A stretch of 64,000 nucleotides of DNA from Collimonas fungivorans Ter331 (lineage in GTDB: Bacteria; Pseudomonadota; Gammaproteobacteria; Burkholderiales; Burkholderiaceae_D). The stretch's first letter is position 1, and every line of letters starts with the position of its first letter. The position numbers were made by a program, and so were the translations under genes. The notes below the pieces were generated by a model, which was given only the letters and a program-made list of their open reading frames with translations, was not told where the DNA came from and did not search any database. Shown in pieces: positions 29,701-46,148 of this stretch. Location: positions 930,001 to 994,000 of the forward strand of contig NC_015856.1 of NCBI RefSeq assembly GCF_000221045.1. The letters are read 5' to 3'.

Positions 29701-29796
29701 TGGCGGAAGGCAGCAGGAGTCGAACCTACCCGGGAGCGACTGGCGCCCCCCACCGGGTTTGAAGCCCGGCCGCATCACCGGATACGTGTGCCTTCC
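29701..29796 (-). tRNA. selC: tRNA-Sec (UCA anticodon)
   Basis: A 96-nt tRNA including an encoded CCA end (29703-29701). The acceptor stem is 8 bp (GGAAGGCA with TGCCTTCC), longer than in ordinary tRNAs. The anticodon TCA (complement of 29760-29762) reads UGA, the anticodon stem is CCGGG/CCCGG, and a long GC-rich variable arm precedes the GGTTCGACTCC T-arm. These are the hallmarks of bacterial selenocysteine tRNA. It lies 19 bases downstream of the selB stop on the same strand, so selA, selB and selC form one unit. Confidence 0.96.
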
Positions 29797-29815
29797 TCGG
29801 TTATGGCGCTCTATC

Positions 29816-31779
<1,964 letters not shown>

Positions 31780-31783
<4 letters not shown>

Positions 31784-33237
31784 ATGGACAGGCCTTGCAG
31801 CTGCGTGCTGAACAGGGCTTCGTCCTGCTGTTCCAGGCAGCGGCAGTCCAGCCACAGCGCATCGCTGGCGATCCGTCCTATGACAGGACGCGGCAGCTGG
31901 CGCAGGGCTTTCTCCAGCTTGTCGAGCGCGCGGCCATGGCGCTTGCCGCCGTTGGCGGCATTCCCGGCACGAACCACCAGGCCATGGCTAGGCAATTGAT
32001 CGACGGGCAGGGCGCCGCTGCCGATCTGGCTGAACATGGCTTCGGCGCTGACGGTATAGTGTGTTCCGAGTGCGTTCTGCAGCGTCGGCAGCAGGCGTTC
32101 GGCTTGCGCTTTGATCGCCGGCTGGCTGCGGGTAAGCAGGCGCAGCGTCGTCAGGCGTTCCGCCAGGAATTCCGGCGCCAGGTACAGCCGCAGCACTGGT
32201 TCCAGCGCGGCCAGGGTGAGCTTGCCGACGCGCAGGGCGCGCTTCAGCGGATTTTTCTTGATGCGGCGTATCAGGTCGGCGCGGCCGACGATCAACCCGG
32301 CCTGCGGCCCGCCCAGCAGCTTGTCGCCGCTGAAGGTGACCAGGTCGGCGCCTTGGCGCATGGTTTCCCGCACCGTGGTTTCTCCAGGCAAGCCCCACTG
32401 CGTCAGGTCCACCAGCGTGCCGCTGCCAAGGTCGACGGTCACAGGCAGCCCGTGCGGCCGCGCCAGTTCCGCCAGTGTGCTGACTTCCACGCTGCGGGTG
32501 AAGCCGCTGATGGCGTAATTGCTGCAATGGACTTTCATCAGCATCGCGCTGCGAGGCGTGATGGCGTTAGCGTAATCCGCTGGATGGGTGCGGTTGGTAG
32601 TGCCGATTTCCACCAGCTTTGCCCCTGCTCGCTGCATGATGTCGGGAATGCGGAATGCGCCGCCAATCTCGACCAGCTCGCCGCGCGAGACGATGACTTC
32701 CTTTCTTTGCGCCAGTGCATTGAGCATCAGCAGCACCGCGGCTGCGTTGTTGTTGACTACGGTGGCGGCCTCGGCGCCGGTCAGTTCGCATAGGACATCT
32801 TCAACCAGGCTGTCGCGGTCGCCGCGGCCGCCGGTTTCCAGGTCGAATTCGAGATTGGCGGGAGATGTCAGCGCACTGACTACCGCTTGCACTGCTTCGT
32901 CCGGCAACAGGGCGCGGCCGAGGTTGGTATGCAGCACGGTGCCGGTGAGGTTGAACAGCGCGCGCAGGTGCAGTCGGCTGGCGGCTGTCAGTTGTTTCTC
33001 AAGAATGGCGATCAGCTGCGAGTCATCGACGTCTGCCGGTATCAGTTTGCCAGCCAGCGCATCGGCTCTCAGCTTGTCCAGGTGCTTGCGCAGCGCCGCG
33101 GTCAGCTGCGTACGCCCATACAGCGCCAGCAATGGCTTGATATCTGCCAGGTTCAGGACCCGGTCCACCGAGGGAATATCGCTGGCGGAGGCTGTCGAAG
33201 TGGCGGCTGTCCCGGCCGGCGTGATTGCTGCAGCCAT
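31780..33237 (-). CDS. selA: L-seryl-tRNA(Sec) selenium transferase SelA
   Basis: A PLP enzyme that converts Ser-tRNA(Sec) to Sec-tRNA(Sec) with selenophosphate. Family features include [32 protein letters not shown], and the PLP lysine in [13 protein letters not shown] (Lys306). The 485-residue length fits. A GGAGG ribosome site precedes the ATG, which lies immediately after the fdhE stop. It needs selenophosphate from SelD, whose gene is not in this window. Confidence 0.96.
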
Positions 33238-34173
33238 TCAATCCTCCATGGATTGCCAGAGCAAGGGGTTGCCGCGCCGGCGTGCATAAGCAGTTTCACC
33301 CATCAGCAGGTCCAGGGCTATGCTGGCCAGGTCATCGGCCAGCGGTTCGATATAGGGGTCTTTTTCCTGGTAGAAGATTTTAAGCCAGCTATGGCATTCG
33401 TCGCAGGTTTCCGCCTTGATGGCTGCCGGGCCGTCTTCTATGACCTGGTAAGCAATGCCCTTGGTGGAGTCGCAATGGCTGCACTTGATGCGCACCATAT
33501 GCCATTCGGCGGCGCACATGCTGCATTGTAAATAACGGTGCCCCTGCGACTGCCCATCCATCCGCACCACGCTGGCTACCGGCAGCGAGCCGCAGCACGG
33601 GCACAGGCCGGGCGCATCGAGCAGCGGTACGTCGCGTTCGCTGAAACGGGTTACAAGATCGCAGCACACCACTTGCAAGGCCGCGGCGTAGAACGGCGCC
33701 GTGGCAGGATCGACAATCTCGTTGTTGCCGTGCAGGATGGCTTCGGCCTGGCTGTCGCGCTGGTTGGCGCTGCTTTGCCGGATACGCGCTATCAGTTGCG
33801 TTACGGCTAGCGGGACGCCGCCCGCTATCGCGACGTGCCCCAGCAATTGTTCAAGGACCACTTGCCAGTGTGGACTGCGCACCTGGTCCGTGGCCAGGAT
33901 CAGCGGCATCAAATGCGTGTTTGCGAGATTGATGCGGGCCTGATCCCGGGCATGGTCATTCGGTTCGCCGGCCAGTTTGTCCAGGGCCAGTTGTTGCGCT
34001 CCTGCCAGCACCGCCATCAGGCTCAGGTATTCGCCGATGGCGTTGCCGGCCGCGAGTTGCTTCAGGCGCTGCGCGCGATTGCCGAATACGCTCGCACGCT
34101 CCGGCAGGCGAATACGTGGAATGGCGTTGTGATCGAGCGCTTCAATTTCACCTGGTTCGAGAATGCGTTGCAA
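33238..34173 (-). CDS. fdhE: Formate dehydrogenase accessory protein FdhE
   Basis: A rubredoxin-like cytoplasmic factor needed for assembly or activation of Tat-exported formate dehydrogenases. Its four cysteine pairs are visible: CPCC, CSMC, CSHC and CDEC, followed by the family ending YQEKDPYIEPLADDLASIALD. The frame is open to 34767, but homology begins at QRILEPGEIEAL, and the best start is a TTG at 34173 with AAAGGGA just upstream, giving 311 residues, close to the E. coli protein. The region upstream of this start is a 13-bp tandem duplication. It lies between fdnI and selA on the same strand. Confidence 0.92.
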   Translation of the reverse strand: MQRILEPGEIEALDHNAIPRIRLPERASVFGNRAQRLKQLAAGNAIGEYLSLMAVLAGAQQLALDKLAGEPNDHARDQARINLANTHLMPLILATDQVRSPHWQVVLEQLLGHVAIAGGVPLAVTQLIARIRQSSANQRDSQAEAILHGNNEIVDPATAPFYAAALQVVCCDLVTRFSERDVPLLDAPGLCPCCGSLPVASVVRMDGQSQGHRYLQCSMCAAEWHMVRIKCSHCDSTKGIAYQVIEDGPAAIKAETCDECHSWLKIFYQEKDPYIEPLADDLASIALDLLMGETAYARRRGNPLLWQSMED

Positions 34174-34175
34174 AG

Positions 34176-34201
34176 TAATCCCTTTATTTAATCCCTTTAT
34201 T
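34176..34201. repeat. Perfect 13-bp tandem duplication at the fdnI/fdhE junction
   Basis: TAATCCCTTTATT occurs twice back to back (34176-34188 and 34189-34201). Read on the minus strand each copy contains AATAAAGGGATTA, so the duplication covers the fdnI stop codon and provides two copies of a ribosome-site-like AAAGGGA ahead of the fdhE TTG. Confidence 0.9.
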
Positions 34202-34838
34202 CGCCAGTCATCTTCCGGTACCACGCCGGGTGGTGCTTGCGCGCCCAGGCGCGGCTGACCGTTCCGCGCGTCATGGCGCCTATCGTGCCCTTGATCCACA
34301 GCGCGGCATAGATATGCACGACGATGCCGACGATAAGCAGGAAACTGCACAACGCATGCAGCACGACTGCCGCCCGGATGACGAATATCGGGAATATCCA
34401 TGAGAACCAGGCGCGCCAGATGACGATGCCGGACAGCAGCAATCCGATCATGCAAGCAATCATCATCCAGAATAACAGCTTCTGGCCGCCGTTGTAGCGG
34501 CCTACCGGCGGCAGGTTTTCTTCGCGGTTGTTGACTACGTCGCGTATGCTTTTCAGCCAGGCGATGTCGTTTTTTTCGATCAGGTTGTGCCGCCAGAAGC
34601 CCAGCGCCAATATCGCAAAGCAAAGGAACATCACCAGCCCGATGAACGGATGCAGGATCCGCGTCCATGGTCCGCCGCCCAACACGAAGCTGAGCCAGAA
34701 CATGGCTGGATGAAACAGCGCCAGCCCGGATAGCGCCAGTATGACAAACGTGATGGCAACGATCCAATGGTTGATGCGTTCCTTGGCGTTATAGCGCTGG
34801 ATGCTGTCTTTTTTTATATCGCGTTCGGAATTGTTCAT
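34197..34838 (-). CDS. fdnI: Formate dehydrogenase-N cytochrome b556 subunit (gamma)
   Basis: An inner-membrane dihaem cytochrome b that passes electrons from the iron-sulfur subunit to the quinone pool. The 213-residue product has four hydrophobic helices, and likely haem or quinone-site His lie in [28 protein letters not shown] and [12 protein letters not shown]. The start ATG overlaps the fdnH stop (ATGA); the open frame continues upstream but only inside fdnH. Length and order match fdnGHI/fdoGHI operons. Confidence 0.95.
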
Positions 34839-35809
34839 GGTGGCGAATCCTGCGAGTTGACGTCGGGATTGTTCGCGTTGGCTTCGGGCGGAGCGAGCAG
34901 AGCGGCAGGTTTTGCCGCACTGGTTTCGTCCCGTTCCGCAGCCTCGTCTTCTTCCGTGACTTCGCTTGGTCCGACCTTGATATAGTGGAAAAATCCTGCC
35001 AGCGCGGTCAGGGCGATGCCCGCCAGCGCCAGCGGCTTGGCGGCGCCTTTCCACAAACCGACCAGCGGACTGATGCGCGGATTGTCCGGCAGGCCGTGAT
35101 ACAGCGACGGCCGGTCGGCGTGGTGCAGCACATACATGACATGGGTGCCGCCCACGCCTGGTGGGTCGTACAGCCCGGCCTTGTCGAACCCGCGTTCCTT
35201 GAGGTCGAGGATACGCTCTGCAGCATGCTCCTTCATGTCCTCCTTGGTGCCGAAGACGATGGCGCCGGTAGGGCAGGTCTTGACGCAGGCCGGTTCCTGG
35301 CCGACTGCCACGCGGTCCGAGCACAGCGTGCATTTATAGGCCTTGTTATCCTTCTTCGAAATGCGCGGCACGTCGAACGGGCAGCCGGTTACGCAATAGC
35401 CGCAGCCGATGCAGTTTTCTTCATGAAAATCGACAATACCGTTGTTGTACTGGACGATGGCGCCAGGCGAAGGACAAGCCTTGAGGCAACCCGGGTCTTC
35501 GCAGTGCATGCAGCCGTCCTTGCGGATCAGCCATTCGAGATTGCCGTCCGGGTTTTCATATTCCGAGAAACGCATGACGGTCCATGAATGCTCCGTCATG
35601 TCGGGCGGATTATCCAGTACACCGACATTGACGCCGACCTCGTCGCGCAGATCGTTCCATTCCATGCAAGCAGTCTGGCAGGCCTTGCAGCCTATGCATT
35701 TGGTGACGTCGATCAGCTTGGCCACAGTGCCCGTCACCGGCTCGCGCACGCCGGGCGGCGGCGTGGTGGTGGCGGACACCCGCTTTATATCTAATGATTG
35801 CAGCGCCAT
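34835..35809 (-). CDS. fdnH: Formate dehydrogenase-N iron-sulfur subunit (beta)
   Basis: A periplasm-facing ferredoxin-like subunit with four [4Fe-4S] clusters that carries electrons from FdnG to FdnI. Cysteine clusters are [11 protein letters not shown] (Cys38, 41, 44, 48), [24 protein letters not shown] and [10 protein letters not shown]-terminal hydrophobic helix ([20 protein letters not shown]) anchors it, and a Glu/Ala-rich tail follows. The 324-residue length is typical. AGGAG precedes the ATG. It begins 8 bases after fdnG ends. Confidence 0.96.
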
Positions 35810-35817
35810 GGCTTCTC

Positions 35818-38800
35818 CTATGCTTTCTCGACCTTGACCAGGAACGACTTGAATTCCGGTGTTTGCGAATTGCCGTCCCCCACGCCAGGCGTCAGCGTGT
35901 TGGCAAGGTAGCCCGGTTTCGCCACGCCCTTGAAACCCCAGTGGATCGGGATGCCGACGTGGTGCACAGGTTTACCTTCAATCATCATTTTCTTGATGCG
36001 TTTCGTCACCACCGCGACGGCGACGATATAACCGCGCTTGGAGCTGACCCTGACGCGCTCGCCGGCGACCACGCCGACTTCCTTCGCCAGCTCTTCGCCG
36101 ATTTCCACAAACTGCTCAGGCTGCAGGATGGCGTTGAGGCGTGCGTGTTTGGTCCAGTAATGGAAATGCTCGGTGAGCCGGTAGGTGGTGCCGACATGCG
36201 GGAAGGCATCGGCCTTGCCGAACATGGCGCGGTCGTCAGGGAATACCCGTGCGCCCGGGTTGCTGGTCGCCGCCGGATTTTTGGGAAACAGCGGGTTATA
36301 GCCGACCGGCGTTTCGAACGGTTCGTAATGCACCGGGAACGGTCCTTCGGCCATGCCGGCGCGGGCAAAGAAACGCGCCACGCCTTCCGGGTTCATGATG
36401 AATGGACCCATGCCGCCGGCGGGCGCTTCGTCGACCTTGAAATCGGGCACGTCGACGCCGCCCCATTTCTGGCCGTTCCAGCCGATCAGCTTGCGTTTCG
36501 CATCGAACGGCTTGCCGCTGATATCGCATGAGGCGCGGTTATACAGGATGCGGCGGTTGGCAGGCCACGCCCACGACCAGTTCAGGGTCTGGCCGATGCC
36601 GGTCGGATCGGAGTTGTCGCGGCGCGCCATCTGGTTGCCGGCCTCGGTCCAGCAGCCGGCGAAAATCCAGCAGCCGCAGGCCGTACTGCCATCGTCGCGC
36701 AGTTCGGCAAAACCGGCCACCTGCTCGTTTTTCTTGCGCACGATCTTGCTCGCATCCTTGGGATCGGCCAGGTCGCTCAGTGCACGGCCGTTGTATTCCT
36801 TGGCCAGCTCGTCCGCGGTCGGGCTTTCCGGATTGGCGTAGGGCCAGGCCAGGTTGACGATTGGATCCGGATATTTGCCGCCGTCCTTGACATACATCTT
36901 GCGGATCTTCAGGAACAGCTCCGACATGATCTCCAGGTCGCTGCGCGCTTCGCCCGGGGGCTCTGCGCCTTTCCAGTGCCATTGCAGCCAGCGGCCGGAA
37001 TTGACCAGTGATCCGTCTTCTTCGGCAAAGCAGGTGGTCGGCAGGCGGAACACCTCGGTCTGGATCTGGCCCGGGTCGACGTTGTTGAACTCGCCGTGGT
37101 TTTGCCAGAACTCGGAAGTCTCGGTGGCCAGCGGATCCATGATGACCAGGAACTTCAGCTTGGCCAGGCTGGCGCCGATCTTGCCCTTGTCCGGCGCCGC
37201 CGCCAGCGGATTGAAACCCTGCGCGATATAGCCGTTGACCTTGCCTTGTTTCATCAGCTCGAACACCTGCAGCATGTCGTACGGCTTGTCCAGCTTGGGC
37301 AGGTAATCAAAGGCCCAGTTGTTGTCTGCCGTGGCGGCATCGCCCCACCATGATTTCATCAGGCTGACATGGAATTTGCCATAGTTCTGCCAGTAGCTCA
37401 GCTGGTTCGGACGCAGCGGTTTGCTGGCGCGCGCGGCGATGTACTTGCCGTAATCCTGTTCGGATTCAGAGGGCAGCGTCATGTAGCCAGGCAACAGGTT
37501 CGTCATCAGCCCCAAATCGGTCAGGCCCTGGATGTTCGAGTGGCCGCGCAGCGCATTCATGCCGCCGCCGGCAATGCCGATATTCCCGAGCAGCAGCTGC
37601 ACCATGGCGCCGGTGCGGATGATTTGCGAACCGATCGAATGCTGGGTCCAGCCGAGTGCGTACAAGACAGTGCCGGCGCGCGTCGGCGACGCGGTCGATG
37701 CCAGCATTTCGCATACCTTCAGGAATTTCTCCTTGGGCGTGCCGCAGACGCTTTCCACCATTTCCGGCGTATAGCGCTCGTAATGCTTTTTCATCAGGTT
37801 GAAGACGCAGCGCGGATGGGCCAGGGTCGGGTCGGTCTTGACAAAACCGTCGTCGCCCAGCTCGTAGTCCCAGGTGGTCTTGCTGTAGTTGTGCTTCTCT
37901 GCGTTGTAGCCCGAGAAAATGCCGTCTTCGAACGTAAAATCTTCGCGCACGATGAACGTGAAATCGGTGTAGTTCTTGACGTATTCGTGCTGGATCTGGT
38001 CCTTTTCCAGCAGGTAGCGGATCACCCCGCCGAGGAAAATGATATCCGTGCCGGTACGGATAGGCGCGTAGAAATCCGCCACCGAGGCCGAACGCGTAAA
38101 GCGCGGATCAACCACGATCAGCTTCGCCTTGTTATGCGCCTTGGCTTCCGTCACCCATTTAAAACCGCAGGGATGGGCTTCGGCGGCATTGCCGCCCATG
38201 ATAAGTATTACATCCGCATTCTTGATGTCGACCCAATGATTCGTCATCGCTCCACGGCCAAACGTCGGGGCAAGACCTGCCACCGTCGGACCGTGTCAGA
38301 CACGCGCCTGGTTATCGAACGCCAGCAGCCCGAGGCTGCGCATGGTTTTATGCGTCAGGTAGCCGACTTCGTTGCTGCTGGCCGATGCCGCCAGCATGCC
38401 TGTAGTCAGCCAGCGGTTGACGGTCAGGCCCTGCGGCGTCTTTTCGACAAAATTGGCGTCGCGGTCCTGTTTCATCAGCGTTGCAATGCGGTTCAAGGCG
38501 TCATCCCAGGACATCCGTTTCCATTCCTTGGAGCCGGGCGCCCGGTATTCGGGATATTGCAGGCGGTTGGGGCTGTGGATGAAATCGAGCAGCGCCGCCC
38601 CTTTGGGACAGAGCGTGCCGCGATTGACCGGATGGTCGGGATCGCCTTCAATGTGGATGATGCTGGCCTTGGCATTTTTTGCGCCGTCGCCGAGGCTGTA
38701 CATCAGGACGCCGCAGCTGACCGAGCAGTAGGGGCAGGTGTTGCGGGTTTCGGTAGTACGCGCCAGTTTATAGCTGCGTACCTCCGCCAATGCCGGCGCC

Positions 38801-38886
38801 GGCGAAAATCCCATCAGCGCCAGGCTCGAACCTGCCAGGGTAGCGCCAGTCGTTTTAAGGAACTGGCGTCTTGACATGTGAACCAT
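35818..38886 (-). CDS. fdnG: Formate dehydrogenase-N selenocysteine-containing major subunit (alpha)
   Basis: A molybdopterin (bis-MGD) selenoenzyme that oxidises formate in the periplasm. The frame is interrupted by a UGA at 38298-38296 (codon 197), read as selenocysteine: the context NQARV-U-HGPTV matches the active site of E. coli FdnG, and a SECIS hairpin follows. Read through, the protein is 1022 residues, the normal family length. A Tat signal (SRRQFLK, residues 5-11) is followed by the [4Fe-4S] ligands Cys51, 54, 58 and 93. The ATG at 38886 has GAGAGG upstream. A conceptual translation without Sec would wrongly give two ORFs (38886-38296 and 38283-35818). Confidence 0.96.
38266..38298 (-). 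promoter_or_regulatory. SECIS element with the recoded UGA of fdnG
   Basis: The UGA is at 38298-38296. Ten bases later a hairpin forms from 38285 to 38266: 5' arm CGGUGGCA, loop GGUCU, 3' arm UGCCCCG. Seven base pairs form if the U at 38282 is bulged. The bulged U on the 5' side and the GGUCU apical loop are the features SelB recognises in E. coli fdhF and fdnG, and the loop GGU falls at the seventh codon after UGA as in fdhF as I recall it. Confidence 0.93.
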
Positions 38887-39088: not shown

Positions 39089-39889
39089 TTATTTCCGAAC
39101 TACGGCCACCAGATTTAGAGATGGCTGCACATTTGGCGCAATTGTGATGTGCGATTCATCAAAACTGAATTGTTGCGACGGGCCAGATGACTGGTGCTTA
39201 CTTCTTAACGCATGAAGCACGTTCAACAGCTTCACTCTCAAGAACCTTGGTATGAAAGGCAGTGTGAAAGGGAGTGTTATCCATTTCACTTTTGCACAGC
39301 GCCGCAGTTCTATTCCAATCACATCCTGGCGGCCGCTCATGTGCTGTATCTGGACGTCCGTAAAAGTTCTGCTTAATGTTCTTCGGAGCGAGTTTGTGCT
39401 GTACTCCCGAATGTGCCAGCGATTCCACGGGGACTGGAAGGGCAGCAGACGGGTGCTGCGGTCCGGGGTTACCAGCAGCAGGTGTCCGCCGGGAGCCAGG
39501 ACGCGGTGAATTTCCGACAGATAATGCGCGGTTTCTTGAATGTGTTCAAAAACCTGGAACGAAAGCACCGTATCAAATGACTGGTCCGGAAACGGCAGGC
39601 GGCTATCCGGCGGGCAGCAATGGAAGTCAAGGTTATCCGCTGCGTAGTGCTGGCTGGCGTACGCAATGGCGTCATCTGCCACATCGACAGCATGCACATG
39701 AGCAGCAGTTTTTGAAATGCGGGCCGAGCCATAACCGCTGCCGCAGCCATAGTCGAGAACACGTTTTCCCGTTGTGAACTGCTCGGCAAAATTGTAAGTG
39801 GCGATATGCATTACATAGATGACGTAGTCCTCGAGCGAAGAGTGGTAATGCTCAACGATCATTCTTTCGCCGGTAGGTTCGAGATTCAT
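39089..39889 (-). CDS. SAM-dependent methyltransferase (class I)
   Basis: A 266-residue Rossmann-fold methyltransferase. The SAM-binding motif is VLDYGCGSGYGSARI (about residues 44-58), with an acidic second motif (HAVDVADDAI) and a FDTVLSFQVFEHI motif. The ATG at 39889 starts MNLEPTGERM, the usual N-terminus of this group; the longer open frame is not supported. Its substrate is unknown; as the last gene of a seven-gene glycan operon it may methylate a sugar. It starts 14 bases after the preceding membrane-protein gene. Confidence 0.85.
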   Translation of the reverse strand: MNLEPTGERMIVEHYHSSLEDYVIYVMHIATYNFAEQFTTGKRVLDYGCGSGYGSARISKTAAHVHAVDVADDAIAYASQHYAADNLDFHCCPPDSRLPFPDQSFDTVLSFQVFEHIQETAHYLSEIHRVLAPGGHLLLVTPDRSTRLLPFQSPWNRWHIREYSTNSLRRTLSRTFTDVQIQHMSGRQDVIGIELRRCAKVKWITLPFTLPFIPRFLRVKLLNVLHALRSKHQSSGPSQQFSFDESHITIAPNVQPSLNLVAVVRK

Positions 39890-39903
39890 GGTGTGGATAG
39901 AGA

Positions 39904-40854
39904 TTAAGAAGAATGCGCTGCGCGCCGTGAAAAAATCAGCATGGCATAACCGGCCAGGAAGCAAAGGCTGTCACCCAATATGGTTGCCAACCTGAAGGCG
40001 ACAATGATGAGAAGAGCGCTTGGTCCTGGATAGCTGGCGCTGAGCATGCCTAGCATGATTACTTCGCGGACACCCAAGCCGGCGGGTGCGCCCGGTGTGA
40101 AAAAACCGGCGACCCAGGCGAGGGAAAAGCTGGCCAGCAGCAGCATGAAATCATGTTTTGTTGCTGGCAGCAATACTGTCGCCATCAGAAAAATCCCAAT
40201 GCCGATCATGACGTAGTTCAAGCAGTAGGCCGCCAGGGCTTTCAGTAGTGTATTCGAATGGGGCAGCAATCCCGCCAGCGATGAATTGCCGTAGGCCGGG
40301 GCAAACCGTTTGAGTAAGCGTGGCATCAGGGGGCGATAAAGCAATAGCGCAGCGATTAACACCCCAACCAGCACCGGAATGAAAATGGCCTGGTTTGCGG
40401 ATGTAAAGCTGGCGAGGCCGGTTTGTGAAAAAAAAGCGCCAGCCATCCCAATGATTAAGGCAGCGAGCAGGGCGAGCAATGTTTCTGAAAATACGGTCAA
40501 CAAAAACGGCTGAATGGCGATACCGCGCGTCATCGACATCGCAGCTCGGCCAATATGCTGTCCGACGTTCCCTGGAAGATATTTCGCCATCTGGGTGACA
40601 CCCATGATCATCGATAGCTCGTGCCATGAATGAGGGCAGCCGATATCCGCAAGCATGTTTTTCCAGGCCCATGCACTTACCGGGATAATGGTGGCGTAGA
40701 GCAGTGCGGCCATGAGTATGCCTCCCAGCGCCGGCGCCGTGAGGTAATGCGATATGTCGGCAATGGTCAAGGTCTTGACCGTATATCCCATGAAAGCAAT
40801 CACGGCGGCCAAGCCAATCATCAAGCCCAACAGACGGTAGATCCGTTTCAGCAT
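39904..40854 (-). CDS. UPF0104/LPG-synthase-TM-like integral membrane protein (putative flippase-type)
   Basis: A 316-residue membrane protein with about eight hydrophobic helices of the lysylphosphatidylglycerol-synthase membrane-domain family. Family elements include MAKYLPGNVGQHIGRAAM and the C-terminal GFFTPGAPAGLGVREVIML. Members have been tied to lipid or lipid-linked sugar handling, but the function here is unknown. The start ATG overlaps the previous methyltransferase stop by 7 bases (ATGCTGA), indicating coupling. The open frame upstream of 40854 has no family similarity. Confidence 0.83.
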   Translation of the reverse strand: MLKRIYRLLGLMIGLAAVIAFMGYTVKTLTIADISHYLTAPALGGILMAALLYATIIPVSAWAWKNMLADIGCPHSWHELSMIMGVTQMAKYLPGNVGQHIGRAAMSMTRGIAIQPFLLTVFSETLLALLAALIIGMAGAFFSQTGLASFTSANQAIFIPVLVGVLIAALLLYRPLMPRLLKRFAPAYGNSSLAGLLPHSNTLLKALAAYCLNYVMIGIGIFLMATVLLPATKHDFMLLLASFSLAWVAGFFTPGAPAGLGVREVIMLGMLSASYPGPSALLIIVAFRLATILGDSLCFLAGYAMLIFSRRAAHSS

Positions 40855-41648
40855 CGGCGTCTGGCCTTGAGGACATAGCCGCTGCCTAGATCGCGGTTGA
40901 TGAAAATATTCTGTATCGCCGAGAATATTTGCAGCGTCCACTTTCCCGGAACTGAGCTTAACAATGGATAGAGCTTCATGTGAGGCTTGCGGTCGGTGCC
41001 GCTCCTGTCATTGTTTTGCTTACGGTTCGCACTGTCGTTCTGGGCATTGTCATATATGCGACGGGCATAGATAGGGGCGCTGATCCATTCGCTCAGATTC
41101 GTGAGTGGAAATCCATAGCACTCGAATATTTCCACTTCCAGTCCGGCATCCTGCAGCAGTGCTATCAAGGATTCGCGTTCATAACGTCGGAAATGTCCGG
41201 CCCATTTGTCGCCCGCGCGCCATAATTTCATGTGAGCCGGCACGGACAGCAACAGTTGTCCGCCTGGCTTGATCCACGATACCCACTGTGCCAATGCCTG
41301 CTGGTCGTCCTCGATGTGTTCCAGCACGTCAAAAGCGCATAACACATCAAAACGGTTCTGCCATTGCGTGCCGGGCAGCGCATGAAGCGGAATGTCCTGG
41401 CCGAATTTGTCGATTACCGATTGCGATAACTTGCGTGCTTCGACGGAAAGCTCTAGCGCTTCACACTGGAATCCATTGCTGGACAACTCAACCAGCAATG
41501 CCGCGGCGCCTGAACCGATCTCCAGCAGCCGTCCGGGCGCCATCTTGCGCATCAACTGCCGAATTCTCGCTCGCCGCATCAGATAACGTGGCGCGGGAAC
41601 CCAGCCTAGTTCCGGTACTGCTGGTCCAAGTATGGGGTCAATTTTCAT
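40848..41648 (-). CDS. SAM-dependent methyltransferase (class I)
   Basis: A 266-residue methyltransferase with SAM motif LLEIGSGAAALLVELSSNG (about residues 40-58) and DVLCAFDVLEHIEDDQQAL, followed by GGQLLLSVPAH, the pattern of O-methyltransferases found in polysaccharide clusters. It is a different subfamily from the methyltransferase encoded at 39089. The ATG at 41648 overlaps the end of the upstream glycosyltransferase gene by 11 bases. The substrate is not predictable. Confidence 0.85.
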   Translation of the reverse strand: MKIDPILGPAVPELGWVPAPRYLMRRARIRQLMRKMAPGRLLEIGSGAAALLVELSSNGFQCEALELSVEARKLSQSVIDKFGQDIPLHALPGTQWQNRFDVLCAFDVLEHIEDDQQALAQWVSWIKPGGQLLLSVPAHMKLWRAGDKWAGHFRRYERESLIALLQDAGLEVEIFECYGFPLTNLSEWISAPIYARRIYDNAQNDSANRKQNNDRSGTDRKPHMKLYPLLSSVPGKWTLQIFSAIQNIFINRDLGSGYVLKARRRC

Positions 41649-42786
41649 TGTTGATCTTGAAATTTTCTTTTGTGAGCAGCCATTTACGGAACTGGGCTCC
41701 GACAGCTGTGGCATCAATCCTGTCTGCAAGATTGATGTGACAACCAATCTTGCCGTCATTTGCCGGCATATTACCCGCATACGATTTCACTGCATGCGCC
41801 AGCGCAACTGCGTTGGCGGCAGGGATCAGAGAGACACATGGGGGACTGTGCTGCAGGAGTTCCCGGATAGCCTGAGAGTCTCGTGTAATCAATGGCTTTT
41901 GTGCTGCAATAATCTGGTAAACCTTGTTCGGTATGACATTGGCAGCCTTTTCCGAGTTGCCAAAAATGCCGAGGCAGATATCTGCTTGCTGAATCCAGGT
42001 GATTAGGTCCGGGTAATCAACCCAATCAAGCCAGCGCAGGCGAGGCAAGGGCGCTTTTGCAAGCATCTCACGAATGCGCAGCGTTTCTTGTCCCTTCCCG
42101 ATCAATATCCAGTCTATTTCTTCATCGCACAGCAAACCGGCGGCTTCTACAATGTATTCGATCCCATGCAAGGGAATAAATTGGCCGTAGAACAGTACCT
42201 GCAAAGGTTTTTCTGGTTGGGGAGGAGCTGCCGGGAAGACTGGAAATTTTTCTGTTTCCGCGCCTACCCAGACCGTGCCGCATTCGCCGTCAGGTAAACG
42301 AAAGAGTCGTTCCAGGCGTCTGGCATGTGCTTCTGTATCCATGAAGATCCCGTCGGCGGCCCTGACGGCGAGCCACTCGAAGCCCCATAATATGCGGGAA
42401 ACCGGGTGCCGGACACTGAACAGTCGGCGGTCATCAACCACCGTATCGTAGGCCGAGATAAATACATCCCATGCTACCGGCACGCGCCTCAGCCAGGCAA
42501 AACAGCGGATGACCAAGACATCGAACAAGCCTGGGTAGCTGACAAGGACAAGATCATGAGCCGGCAATTGCAGATATCGCCAGATCAGGGAGGGATAGCA
42601 GGAAAAAAGGCGGAGCATCAAGGCAAGCTTGCCGAAAATGCTGCTTACCTGGCTTTTGTCTTCAACCCCGCTCCAGATATCTGCATGGCATTCGATCAAT
42701 TCAAAGCCGTTTTTCCTCATGCCATCGAGCAGTAGCCTCACCCGCGGCTTGCCGGTGTCATAGGTACCCCACAAGACGATTTTCAT
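41638..42786 (-). CDS. Glycosyltransferase, GT-B fold (GT1/GT4 type)
   Basis: A 382-residue cytoplasmic glycosyltransferase. The C-terminal donor domain carries LQVLFYGQFIPLHGIEYIVEAA and, further on, LGIFGNSEKAANVIPNKVYQ, where the acidic residue and the Asn-Lys-Val-Tyr segment correspond to the E-x7-E region of GT4 enzymes. The N-terminal domain begins MKIVLWGTYDTGKPRVRLLL. Sugar donor and acceptor are unknown. The ATG lies 9 bases after the GT2 stop on the same strand. Confidence 0.82.
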   Translation of the reverse strand: MKIVLWGTYDTGKPRVRLLLDGMRKNGFELIECHADIWSGVEDKSQVSSIFGKLALMLRLFSCYPSLIWRYLQLPAHDLVLVSYPGLFDVLVIRCFAWLRRVPVAWDVFISAYDTVVDDRRLFSVRHPVSRILWGFEWLAVRAADGIFMDTEAHARRLERLFRLPDGECGTVWVGAETEKFPVFPAAPPQPEKPLQVLFYGQFIPLHGIEYIVEAAGLLCDEEIDWILIGKGQETLRIREMLAKAPLPRLRWLDWVDYPDLITWIQQADICLGIFGNSEKAANVIPNKVYQIIAAQKPLITRDSQAIRELLQHSPPCVSLIPAANAVALAHAVKSYAGNMPANDGKIGCHINLADRIDATAVGAQFRKWLLTKENFKINNEN

Positions 42787-42795
42787 CGAATCTGC

Positions 42796-43803
42796 TTAAG
42801 CCGCGATGTCATCGGACGGCGGCACTGATTGCATATCATGATCAATCGAATGATCCAGTACTGCGTTCACGCCTTTGTCATCCCGTAGCCGAAAACGCAC
42901 ATCTTCTATCAGTTTGCGGTTAGCCGCCAGCAGATCTGCCAAAAAAGCTACCAGCAAGGTTTGAAATCCCATTACCAGCAAGACAGCGGCAAGGATCAGC
43001 GATTGTATGTGGCCGCCGCCTTCGCCGCCGACGTATTTCCACATGAAGCGCAAACCGATCAGCAGGCCAGCGCCGAATAATATGGCGCCAATTGTCCCGA
43101 AGAAGCGAAACGGACGATAGATGATGAAAATCCGTACGATGGTGACCACGCTCCGTGTTACATACGATGAGATGCTTTTGACCAGGCGCGATGGCCGCAA
43201 GTCTCCATTTACCCGAATCGGCACCGAAGTGATGCTCATGTTCTTCTGGCCGGCCTGGATGATGGTTTCCAGCGTGTAGGTGTAGCTGCTGAAAACGGTC
43301 AGGTTCTGGGCGGCAGTGCGGCTGATGGCGCGGAAGCCGCTGGTGGCGTCCGGTATGTCCGTCTTGCTGGCGACACGAACCACCCAGCTGCCTAATTTCT
43401 GCAGCATTTTTTTTACCGGCGAAAAGTGTTCGATTGCCTCAATCGGGCGTGCGCCGACGACGATATCGGCTTGATTGGCGACAATAGGCGCGGTAAGCGC
43501 AGGAATATCATTCGCATTGTATTGGTTGTCAGCGTCGGTATTGACGATGACGTCCGCTCTCAAATGCAGGCAGGCTTCCAGTCCGGTCATGAACGCACGT
43601 GCCAAGCCCTGATTGCGGGTATGGCGGACCACGTGGTCGACACCGTTTTCTCTTGCGACCTTGACAGTGTCGTCGCTGCTGCCGTCGTCAACGATCAACC
43701 ATTCCACACTATCAAACCCTGAGACTTTTCTGGGTAATGCGGCAAGTGCAATGGCGAGGGTTCCTGCTTCGTTATAACAGGGGATTTGAATAATCAGTTT
43801 CAC
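42796..43803 (-). CDS. Family 2 glycosyltransferase with two C-terminal membrane helices (GtrB/DPM1-like)
   Basis: A 335-residue polyprenyl-phosphate-type glycosyltransferase. The GT-A domain begins LIIQIPCYNEAGTLAIAL and contains WLIVDDGSSDDTV and the metal motif VNTDADNQY; two hydrophobic helices follow near residues 235-300. This architecture is that of enzymes that load a sugar onto undecaprenyl phosphate for periplasmic use. The start is a GTG with GGAG upstream (AATGGAGCAAAGTG). In context it could make the lipid-linked donor for the DUF2142 protein. Confidence 0.85.
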   Translation of the reverse strand: MKLIIQIPCYNEAGTLAIALAALPRKVSGFDSVEWLIVDDGSSDDTVKVARENGVDHVVRHTRNQGLARAFMTGLEACLHLRADVIVNTDADNQYNANDIPALTAPIVANQADIVVGARPIEAIEHFSPVKKMLQKLGSWVVRVASKTDIPDATSGFRAISRTAAQNLTVFSSYTYTLETIIQAGQKNMSITSVPIRVNGDLRPSRLVKSISSYVTRSVVTIVRIFIIYRPFRFFGTIGAILFGAGLLIGLRFMWKYVGGEGGGHIQSLILAAVLLVMGFQTLLVAFLADLLAANRKLIEDVRFRLRDDKGVNAVLDHSIDHDMQSVPPSDDIAA

Positions 43804-43863
43804 TTTGCTCCATTACTTCTATATTGATATCCGTAGGATAGGGCGAATTTATATCATCTGACT

Positions 43864-44520
43864 TCAACGCAATCCTGATCTTGTTGGCCAAAACAGTACT
43901 GAAATGCTTAAGCCACACAGTACCGTTAGCACGATTGCCCATATGGGTTTCTTGTTTGACTCTGTCATCACACTGATAGAAAACACCAGGCTCTTGTCCA
44001 GTTCCTGATTGCCACGGCGCGCGTGCCCTCGTGTGATATCCGATGTCATCCAGGCAGTAATGGCCTTACCCGGCGGGCTGTCGACTCCCTTAAGGGTCAG
44101 GGTGGTGGACTTATGTGCAATATCTCTCAGAGGAAGGGCGTTAAAACAAAAGCGCTGATAGTCGTTATCATGCACTGCGTTTGCATTAAGCAATATCTCT
44201 TGCGACATATGCCCTGCGCGCAAATCCATCGAAAAAGTACCGCTATTTTTTCGATCATTATAATTCGCCAGTATAAGATCAATACAAAGCGTACCTTTCT
44301 GATTCAATTTTGAATCGCTTATCAAATTCCAATCGACGGGTTGTTCAAGTTGAAAACCAGTTGTGATTTCACCTGCTGGGGTTGGCTTCAGAATTTCTGG
44401 CGGGGCGAGAATAATATATTCATATTTCTCTGAATATGCGTCTCCCAGAAAAAAGAAAATAAATATGCTAAAGCCAGTGATCCACAGAAAAAAAATGGAA
44501 AACGAATTTAAAAATTTCAT
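43864..44520 (-). CDS. Unknown membrane-anchored protein between the GT2 and DUF2142 genes
   Basis: A 218-residue protein that I do not recognise. It has one N-terminal hydrophobic helix (about residues 6-26) and one near the C-terminus (about 192-210, IWAIVLTVLCGLSISVLFW), with a roughly 165-residue beta-rich polar domain between them that probably faces the periplasm. The central part (GTLCIDLILANYNDRKNSGT) is suggestive of a beta-sandwich. Its start overlaps the DUF2142 stop by 4 bases, so the two are translationally coupled and may form a complex. It is AT-rich. Confidence 0.75.
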   Translation of the reverse strand: MKFLNSFSIFFLWITGFSIFIFFFLGDAYSEKYEYIILAPPEILKPTPAGEITTGFQLEQPVDWNLISDSKLNQKGTLCIDLILANYNDRKNSGTFSMDLRAGHMSQEILLNANAVHDNDYQRFCFNALPLRDIAHKSTTLTLKGVDSPPGKAITAWMTSDITRGHARRGNQELDKSLVFSISVMTESNKKPIWAIVLTVLCGLSISVLFWPTRSGLR

Positions 44521-46148
44521 GAGTAATATTTAAGATAAAACGGTAAGGCCTGTTTAACATAAACTGAAAGTTCTGCGCATGCTAACAGTGTAATTCCAAT
44601 ATTGATAACAATTTTTGGGATATGCAGGCGCAGCAATATAATGGAGGCAGATAAAATTACTAACGGAATGGCCGGGTAGAAATATCTGCCTTGGGCAGCT
44701 CTCAAGACCCCTTCTGTGAGGTAGGCATCATAAATATGATGTAGGAAAACAGAGCCAAAAAATAATGTCACAGCAAGACCATACAGAGCCAGTCTGTCAA
44801 CTCTATCTTTGATGTAAAAAATCAAAGGAATCGATATAATTCCTAGGAATATTGATATTGGAATGCAGGAAAATAATATAAATGTAGAGTCCGTGAAACT
44901 CGTAATGTTAATGAAAATCGCAGCAGCGGATGCCATGAAATAAGCAGCCATCAGCGGTACGGATCGATATCGATAATTTTTTAAATGGAAGTTTGCCAGC
45001 GCTATGAAAGAATTGTCATTTAATGGAGCAGGGTTCTCCCTGGATACGTGCAAAAGAAGCATCCAGATATAAATTAAGCCGATGCACGACAAGGCGAACA
45101 GAATACCCAAAAATATATCATAGGGGACACCGCTTGCCGTAATGCTAATAAATTTTAGGGGGCGTGGCAGTACATCGTATTCAAGAAATATTTTTTCAGA
45201 AGATGGCGTTATATGTCCAAACATGCCATAAAATAAATGAGCTATTGAATCGAAGACAGGCTGCGACCTTATATAATCAGAAAAACTTTGCTGCAAGGGG
45301 ATTTCTAGTCCCGGTTTTCTATGAGTTCCAGATGTATATAGAGGGAATTGAAAATACACAAAATTGCGTATCATCCATGCGGCAGGTATTGAGAAAGCAA
45401 TGATAAGTATTTTTATTGCATGCTTCAGCCGATTTTCTCTTGGGAGTTCCAGTATCAGAATAAGTACCATTGGAACAAGCAAAACCAGAGGAGTCATCAT
45501 TTTGGTTCCACCAGCAATGGCTAACCATATTGCGCAGCGATATGCATCTTTGATTTTTCGATTAATTATGTAATACGAAAAAAAAAGGGTCGCTAAAGCG
45601 CAAAACAGAAAAAGCGACATGTCATGATTGGTGCCTGAAGACAAATGCGAGACCATCGGGATGAAACCGATTGCTGCTGCGAGGGCGGTGGAGCGCGGTG
45701 GATCCAACCCGATTGCTGTGAAAGTACGGAACAGAACCAACAAAAGTAAAGCCCCAGACAATGCGGACGATATGCGTGGCAGGCGGACTAGAACATCCAT
45801 ATCAGTGCTTACCCAGCGTCCTATCTTCAGCGGTATAGCAGAAATAGCATAATACACAGGGGGATGTTGCGCAATCCAGTTATACGCTGGCTGGGAATCT
45901 GGAGTTCTTTCAAGGTACCCCATAACATCAGTACCTATTACCGATTTTCCGATTGCAGGAACACTCAGTACGGGTATCCCTTTTCCGTAGGCAATATCCT
46001 GAGTATATGCAAAATGTCCAATTTCATCCGGGACTGCTGAAAATGGCGTTATGAAGAAAGATAAAAATAACGCCTTTATCAGAAAAATTAGAGAAATTAA
46101 GAGTATAGGCAAGGGGTAATTCTTAAGGATATTTTTCATATTTGGCAT
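44517..46148 (-). CDS. DUF2142 family polytopic membrane protein, probable GT-C glycosyltransferase
   Basis: A 543-residue protein with about a dozen hydrophobic segments. The first periplasmic loop carries the DUF2142 hallmark FSAVPDEIGHFAYTQDIAYG, whose Asp-Glu-x-x-His resembles the catalytic loop of GT-C enzymes using lipid-linked donors; AQHPPVYYAI further on is also typical. The role inferred is transfer of a sugar from a polyprenyl phosphate carrier to a glycan on the periplasmic side. It is the first gene of the seven-gene minus-strand unit and is very AT-rich. Confidence 0.85.
   Translation of the reverse strand: MPNMKNILKNYPLPILLISLIFLIKALFLSFFITPFSAVPDEIGHFAYTQDIAYGKGIPVLSVPAIGKSVIGTDVMGYLERTPDSQPAYNWIAQHPPVYYAISAIPLKIGRWVSTDMDVLVRLPRISSALSGALLLLVLFRTFTAIGLDPPRSTALAAAIGFIPMVSHLSSGTNHDMSLFLFCALATLFFSYYIINRKIKDAYRCAIWLAIAGGTKMMTPLVLLVPMVLILILELPRENRLKHAIKILIIAFSIPAAWMIRNFVYFQFPLYTSGTHRKPGLEIPLQQSFSDYIRSQPVFDSIAHLFYGMFGHITPSSEKIFLEYDVLPRPLKFISITASGVPYDIFLGILFALSCIGLIYIWMLLLHVSRENPAPLNDNSFIALANFHLKNYRYRSVPLMAAYFMASAAAIFINITSFTDSTFILFSCIPISIFLGIISIPLIFYIKDRVDRLALYGLAVTLFFGSVFLHHIYDAYLTEGVLRAAQGRYFYPAIPLVILSASIILLRLHIPKIVINIGITLLACAELSVYVKQALPFYLKYYS

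Follow-up and report, generated by a model that had tools for sequence, protein, structure and literature searches.

A probable selenocysteine codon in fdnG of Collimonas fungivorans Ter331 and the selenocysteine-decoding genes that adjoin it

The fdnG gene of Collimonas fungivorans Ter331, as read from its sequence, very probably encodes the selenocysteine-containing catalytic subunit of the respiratory formate dehydrogenase-N, with selenocysteine (Sec) at codon 197, where an in-frame UGA is found. This reading, put forward in the initial annotation, is upheld by the agreement of several lines of evidence: the protein family, the equivalent position in the E. coli structure 1kqf, the match to a SECIS model, the conservation of wobble bases, a counter-example with cysteine, and the presence of adjacent sel genes and a tRNA-Sec. 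No finding speaks directly against it. FdnG selenoproteins, their SECIS elements and selABC clusters are known biology, and the case is an ordinary one. The features involved are collected in Table 1; the window is the whole stretch of DNA that was analysed (64,000 nucleotides), and positions are counted from its first letter.

Table 1. Features of the fdnG-sel region in the window, with the evidence for each
Feature	Position	Strand	Evidence and remarks
fdnG, formate dehydrogenase-N alpha subunit, 1022 residues, N-terminal Tat signal	35818..38886	-	TIGR01553; Pfam domains; 1kqf E 0
Probable Sec codon UGA, codon 197 of fdnG	38296..38298	-	aligns with X of 1kqf chain A; TGA in 109/110 loci
Bacterial SECIS, Rfam RF01989 SECIS_3	38243..38301	-	paired part 38253-38295, bulged U 38282, loop GGUCU 38277-38273
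fdnH, beta (Fe-S) subunit	34835..35809	-	TIGR01582, 461.3 bits, cut-off 334.7
fdnI, gamma (cytochrome b) subunit	34197..34838	-	TIGR01583, 199.8 bits, cut-off 115.85; ATG 34838 overlaps fdnH stop
fdhE, formate dehydrogenase accessory protein, putative TTG start	33238..34173	-	TIGR01562, 280.9 bits, cut-off 187.65
selA, L-seryl-tRNA(Sec) selenium transferase	31780..33237	-	TIGR00474, 599 bits, cut-off 267.9; Pfam SelA
selB, Sec-specific elongation factor	29816..31783	-	TIGR00475, 461.1 bits, cut-off 242.25; ATG overlaps selA stop
selC, tRNA-Sec, anticodon UCA	29701..29796	-	ARAGORN; RF01852, 77.1 bits, cut-off 47; 19 nt after selB

The fdnG reading frame and its product

Starting from the ATG at 38886, the frame contains a single internal UGA (38298-38296, minus strand) and no other stop, and when read through it gives 1022 residues and ends at 35818. 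The position of the UGA and the residues that flank it (NQARV-U-HGPTV) are those first described, and the mechanical list of open reading frames, made with translation table 11, holds the two fragments of 196 residues (38296-38886) and 821 residues (35818-38283) whose lengths had been given. For the further claim, that the gene would be divided by automatic annotation, there is evidence on both sides. The two RefSeq records examined both annotate the gene whole, one of 3051 nt in E. coli, which is probably the FdoG copy despite being annotated as fdnG because it lies beside fdhD and fdoH, and one of 3069 nt on a Caballeronia plasmid. Seven of eight plasmid rows list no feature, though the gene table in question describes itself as incomplete; on the side of the claim, the portion of PMC5330540 (2017) consulted here states that selenoprotein genes are usually mispredicted.

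The read-through product matches TIGR01553 (formate-DH-alph) over residues 4-1021 with 1503.4 bits (cut-off 814.2), and Pfam recognizes in it the Tat signal and the Fe4S4, molybdopterin and dinucleotide-binding domains. The alignment to E. coli FdnG (1kqf, E 0), which had been proposed as a check, covers the product from its residue 4 through to its last residue and places residue 197 on the X of that chain, the selenocysteine of the E. coli enzyme; the two proteins are thus alike in belonging to the same family over their full length and in having the Sec codon at the equivalent residue. At its active-site position TIGR01553 calls for Sec or Cys, and what is found there is the UGA, on the X of 1kqf, and in one relative TGT. 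This family, with the motif UHxP, appears among the experimentally verified selenoprotein families in the tabulated part of PMC13188914. The genome of C. fungivorans holds 15 matches to the formate dehydrogenase-N family, and FdnG is the only one with an in-frame UGA. Antisense to fdnG there is also an open frame of 501 residues (37369-38874), without a match in NCBIfam, which is probably a by-product of codon bias.

The hairpin that follows the UGA

The whole of the SECIS_3 covariance model is covered by its match to positions 38243-38301, which scores 83.3 bits against a cut-off of 63 (E 2.9e-18 for a search of the window), and this is the sole match at E <= 0.001 in the C. fungivorans genome under stricter filters. 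A match to RF01989 was likewise obtained in the E. coli control genome, so that both genomes share the same SECIS family; a study by Berg et al. from 1991 reportedly deals with fdnGHI and its stem-loop. The hairpin with a bulged U and a GGUCU loop described in the initial annotation is indeed present in the predicted fold, where U 38282 is unpaired and the loop (38277-38273) lies 18 nt after the UGA, with a folding energy of -9.9 kcal/mol for the 23-nt apical piece, and it fits the bSECIS rules in the form in which the consulted part of PMC13188914 quotes them. The interval originally assigned to it (38266-38298) is too short, since the paired part spans 38295 to 38253 and that interval covers only the UGA and the apical part of the hairpin.

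Folding energy is a poor guide to this element. Compared with shuffled sequences, the hairpin has a z of -1.5 and 19 of 200 shuffles are as stable, which is insignificant alone, and 768 of 5000 synonymous recodings are as stable as the native sequence; 104 of these 5000 recodings (about 2%) keep the apical pairs, the bulged U and GUCU by chance. Over the same 59 bases, the one relative with a cysteine codon (L030) folds at -28.1 kcal/mol versus -24.7 for the window, that is, lower, and stability is therefore no mark of a SECIS element. The hairpin is beyond chance by the covariance model, not by folding energy alone.

Conservation of the codon, the hairpin and the decoding genes

The position of codon 197 was compared in 110 loci, 30 of them fetched by their match to SECIS_3 (including the window's own, L009), which are biased towards TGA by this selection, and 80 chosen by protein match, which are near relatives because they are the best 80 of at least 594. 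TGA occupies this position in 109 of the 110 loci, the window included, and TGT in the remaining one; among the protein-chosen loci the count is 80/80. In these 80 loci, the fraction of identical codons reaches 0.965 in the 15 codons 201-215, which correspond to the hairpin, against a gene mean of 0.588, and this is the highest value of 990 windows of codons along the gene. Another way of looking at this constraint is to consider residues conserved in at least 97% of the loci: the same-codon fraction is 0.89 for the 16 of them within codons 198-214 and 0.59 for the 416 outside.

All 109 TGA loci, which represent 37 distinct sequences, keep the bulged U, the loop bases GUCU at model positions 26-29 and every one of the four apical pairs. 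Across these 37 sequences, 94.1% of cells can pair; displacing one arm by 1 to 3 bases lowers this to between 27 and 52%. Both partners have changed in 5 cells, which belong to two of the 16 pairs, and a displaced arm gives at most one such pair, with no more than 3 cells (a shift of +1 gives one pair and 3 cells). Such compensatory changes are few because the SECIS element is nearly invariant. In the TGT relative, L030, G26 and U27 of GUCU are changed, but not the C and U after them, and the bulged U is kept as well. Only two of its four apical pairs can still form, its score against SECIS_3 is 45.5 bits, below the cut-off of 63, and a search of its genome (G085) for selB at E <= 1e-80 found nothing.

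These patterns bear on the possibility that a near-cognate tRNA, for Trp or another amino acid, decodes the UGA, so that no Sec is inserted. Some read-through of UGA occurs in bacteria generally, which counts in its favour, but we consider it very improbable: the SECIS wobble bases are kept across the 80 protein-chosen relatives, although this kind of read-through has no need of them, the relative with cysteine loses loop bases, and genes for SelA, SelB, tRNA-Sec and SelD are present. One could also take fdnG for a pseudogene cut in two, with the UGA put down to a sequencing error or a nonsense mutation. This proposal agrees with the split of the frame into 196 and 821 residues under table 11, but it is more improbable still, given that 109 of 110 loci, the window's among them, have TGA at this codon, that the 1022-residue frame lacks any further stop and that the SECIS element and the sel genes are present, and the conservation of the UGA together with the hairpin rules it out.

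The proposed selenocysteine at codon 197 also finds its expected company in the genome. The mark of Sec decoding is a UGA at a Cys position together with a SECIS element and selABCD, according to the part of PMC1273633 consulted, and selA, selB, selC and selD are all present in C. fungivorans. The selD gene (L119) lies at 1988522-1989451 of the genome, about 1 Mb from the cluster, and encodes the Cys form (GGGCGCK); a rhodanese-type open frame beside it presumably resembles selU/ybbB. By analogy with the families to which these products belong, Sec would be made on tRNASec by SelA with selenophosphate from SelD, SelB-GTP with Sec-tRNASec would bind the SECIS hairpin just after the UGA, and SelB would deliver Sec at codon 197 in place of termination.

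A survey of 100 genomes, that of C. fungivorans included, allows the co-occurrence of these elements to be followed. SECIS_3 matches at E <= 0.001 in 33 genomes and above the cut-off in 29, and an FdnG match at E <= 1e-150 was found in 31, of which 28 have one internal TGA and three have none. selB is present (E <= 1e-80) in all 28 genomes with a UGA in fdnG, including that of C. fungivorans; a tRNA-Sec above 60 bits is present in 27 of them, the exception being G003, a draft of 420 contigs. The 29th genome with a SECIS element (G088) carries it on a short contig and has both selB and tRNA-Sec. As for the three FdnG without TGA, two lie in genomes without selB at E <= 1e-80 (G085, the only one of the three in which the codon at the Sec position was determined, and G077) and the other in a genome with selB (G064). 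The tRNA-Sec model gives 48.7 bits in G085, barely above the cut-off of 47 and without selB, which was counted against the Sec reading; every one of the 100 genomes, however, gives some match to this model at E <= 0.001 (54 of them above the cut-off), so weak matches of this kind are no evidence; they presumably stem from other tRNAs with long arms.

Some genomes depart from this association. selB was found in 39 genomes, 11 of which have no UGA-FdnG match; these are G088 and another ten (G094, G070, G030, G061, G035, G029, G047, G084, G044 and G064), which may use Sec in other proteins. G068 has a tRNA-Sec match of 71.4 bits but lacks selB at E <= 1e-80. In three genomes (G025, G038 and G058) the SECIS_3 scores of 29 to 33 bits are below the cut-off, and neither FdnG nor selB is matched at the limits used. 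A genome placed in the same genus as the window, of 1.7 Mb (G001), has no match to SECIS_3, FdnG or selB at these limits and is perhaps that of a reduced symbiont.

Organization of the fdnG-sel cluster

The selA, selB and tRNA-Sec genes that were said to share an operon with fdnG are indeed found near it by the family models and by ARAGORN, and the product of selB has the C-terminal SelB winged-helix domains (Pfam). The genes fdnG-fdnH-fdnI-fdhE-selA-selB-tRNASec (29701-38886) are co-directional, with gaps of 8, -4, 23, 0, -4 and 19 nt, the starts of fdnI, fdhE and selB having been chosen with family matches. Spacing and conserved order point to one operon, and from their families FdnH and FdnI would form a membrane complex with FdnG, while FdhE would be a maturation factor; formate dehydrogenase activity and co-transcription are likewise suggested by the families. 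The promoter scan gave 3 sites versus 3.1 in shuffles, and the terminator scan 14 versus 9.4 (sd 3.1). Two overlapping terminator candidates on the minus strand (29614-29599), about 90 nt after the tRNA-Sec, could end the cluster, as matches to a consensus only. Upstream of fdnG and on the same strand, the block 39089-46148 encodes membrane proteins (LPG_synthase_TM, PMT_2) along with methyltransferases and glycosyltransferases, and may be concerned with surface polysaccharides or lipids.

The whole order is found on one strand in 67 of the 80 related loci. Of the 13 others, five (L044, L058, L088, L108 and L110) reach the end of their sequence at or near the cluster, and eight lack a member for which there is room: in four (L063, L104, L106 and L107) selB follows fdhE with no selA match at E <= 1e-5 in the locus, and selA may be elsewhere or lost; and in L043, L081, L098 and L101 the tRNA-Sec or more is missing. 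A tRNA-Sec was detected in 69 of the 80 loci. In 61 of these no more than 300 nt separate it from the selB match, and in the other eight (L039, L056, L062, L063, L064, L066, L069 and L070) it follows at a distance of about 2.8 kb.

In E. coli, the genes for the beta and gamma subunits lie downstream of fdnG, and selA, selB and selC are not known to adjoin fdnGHI, whereas in the window fdhE, selA, selB and the tRNA-Sec follow fdnGHI in the same direction. The UGA-fdnG clusters of other Burkholderiales (Collimonas, Achromobacter, Paraburkholderia, Burkholderia and others) have the same order in those 67 loci, from which the window's cluster is no different in kind, and its nearest named locus is that of Collimonas sp. 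OK242, with 95% protein identity. The consulted part of PMC5330540 describes tRNA-Sec and selenoproteins in two Burkholderia genomes, as well as selABC clusters in genomes with unusual tRNA-Sec.

It has been tempting to go further and propose that the cluster is one transcription unit from which the tRNASec is cut, that Sec decoding is on only with formate respiration, and that the block moves between genomes, a picture to which we would give somewhat less than an even chance. The genome has what Sec decoding needs and its formate dehydrogenase is best read as one intact gene; a selenoprotein so tightly linked with its decoding genes offers a tidy case for the study of co-regulation.
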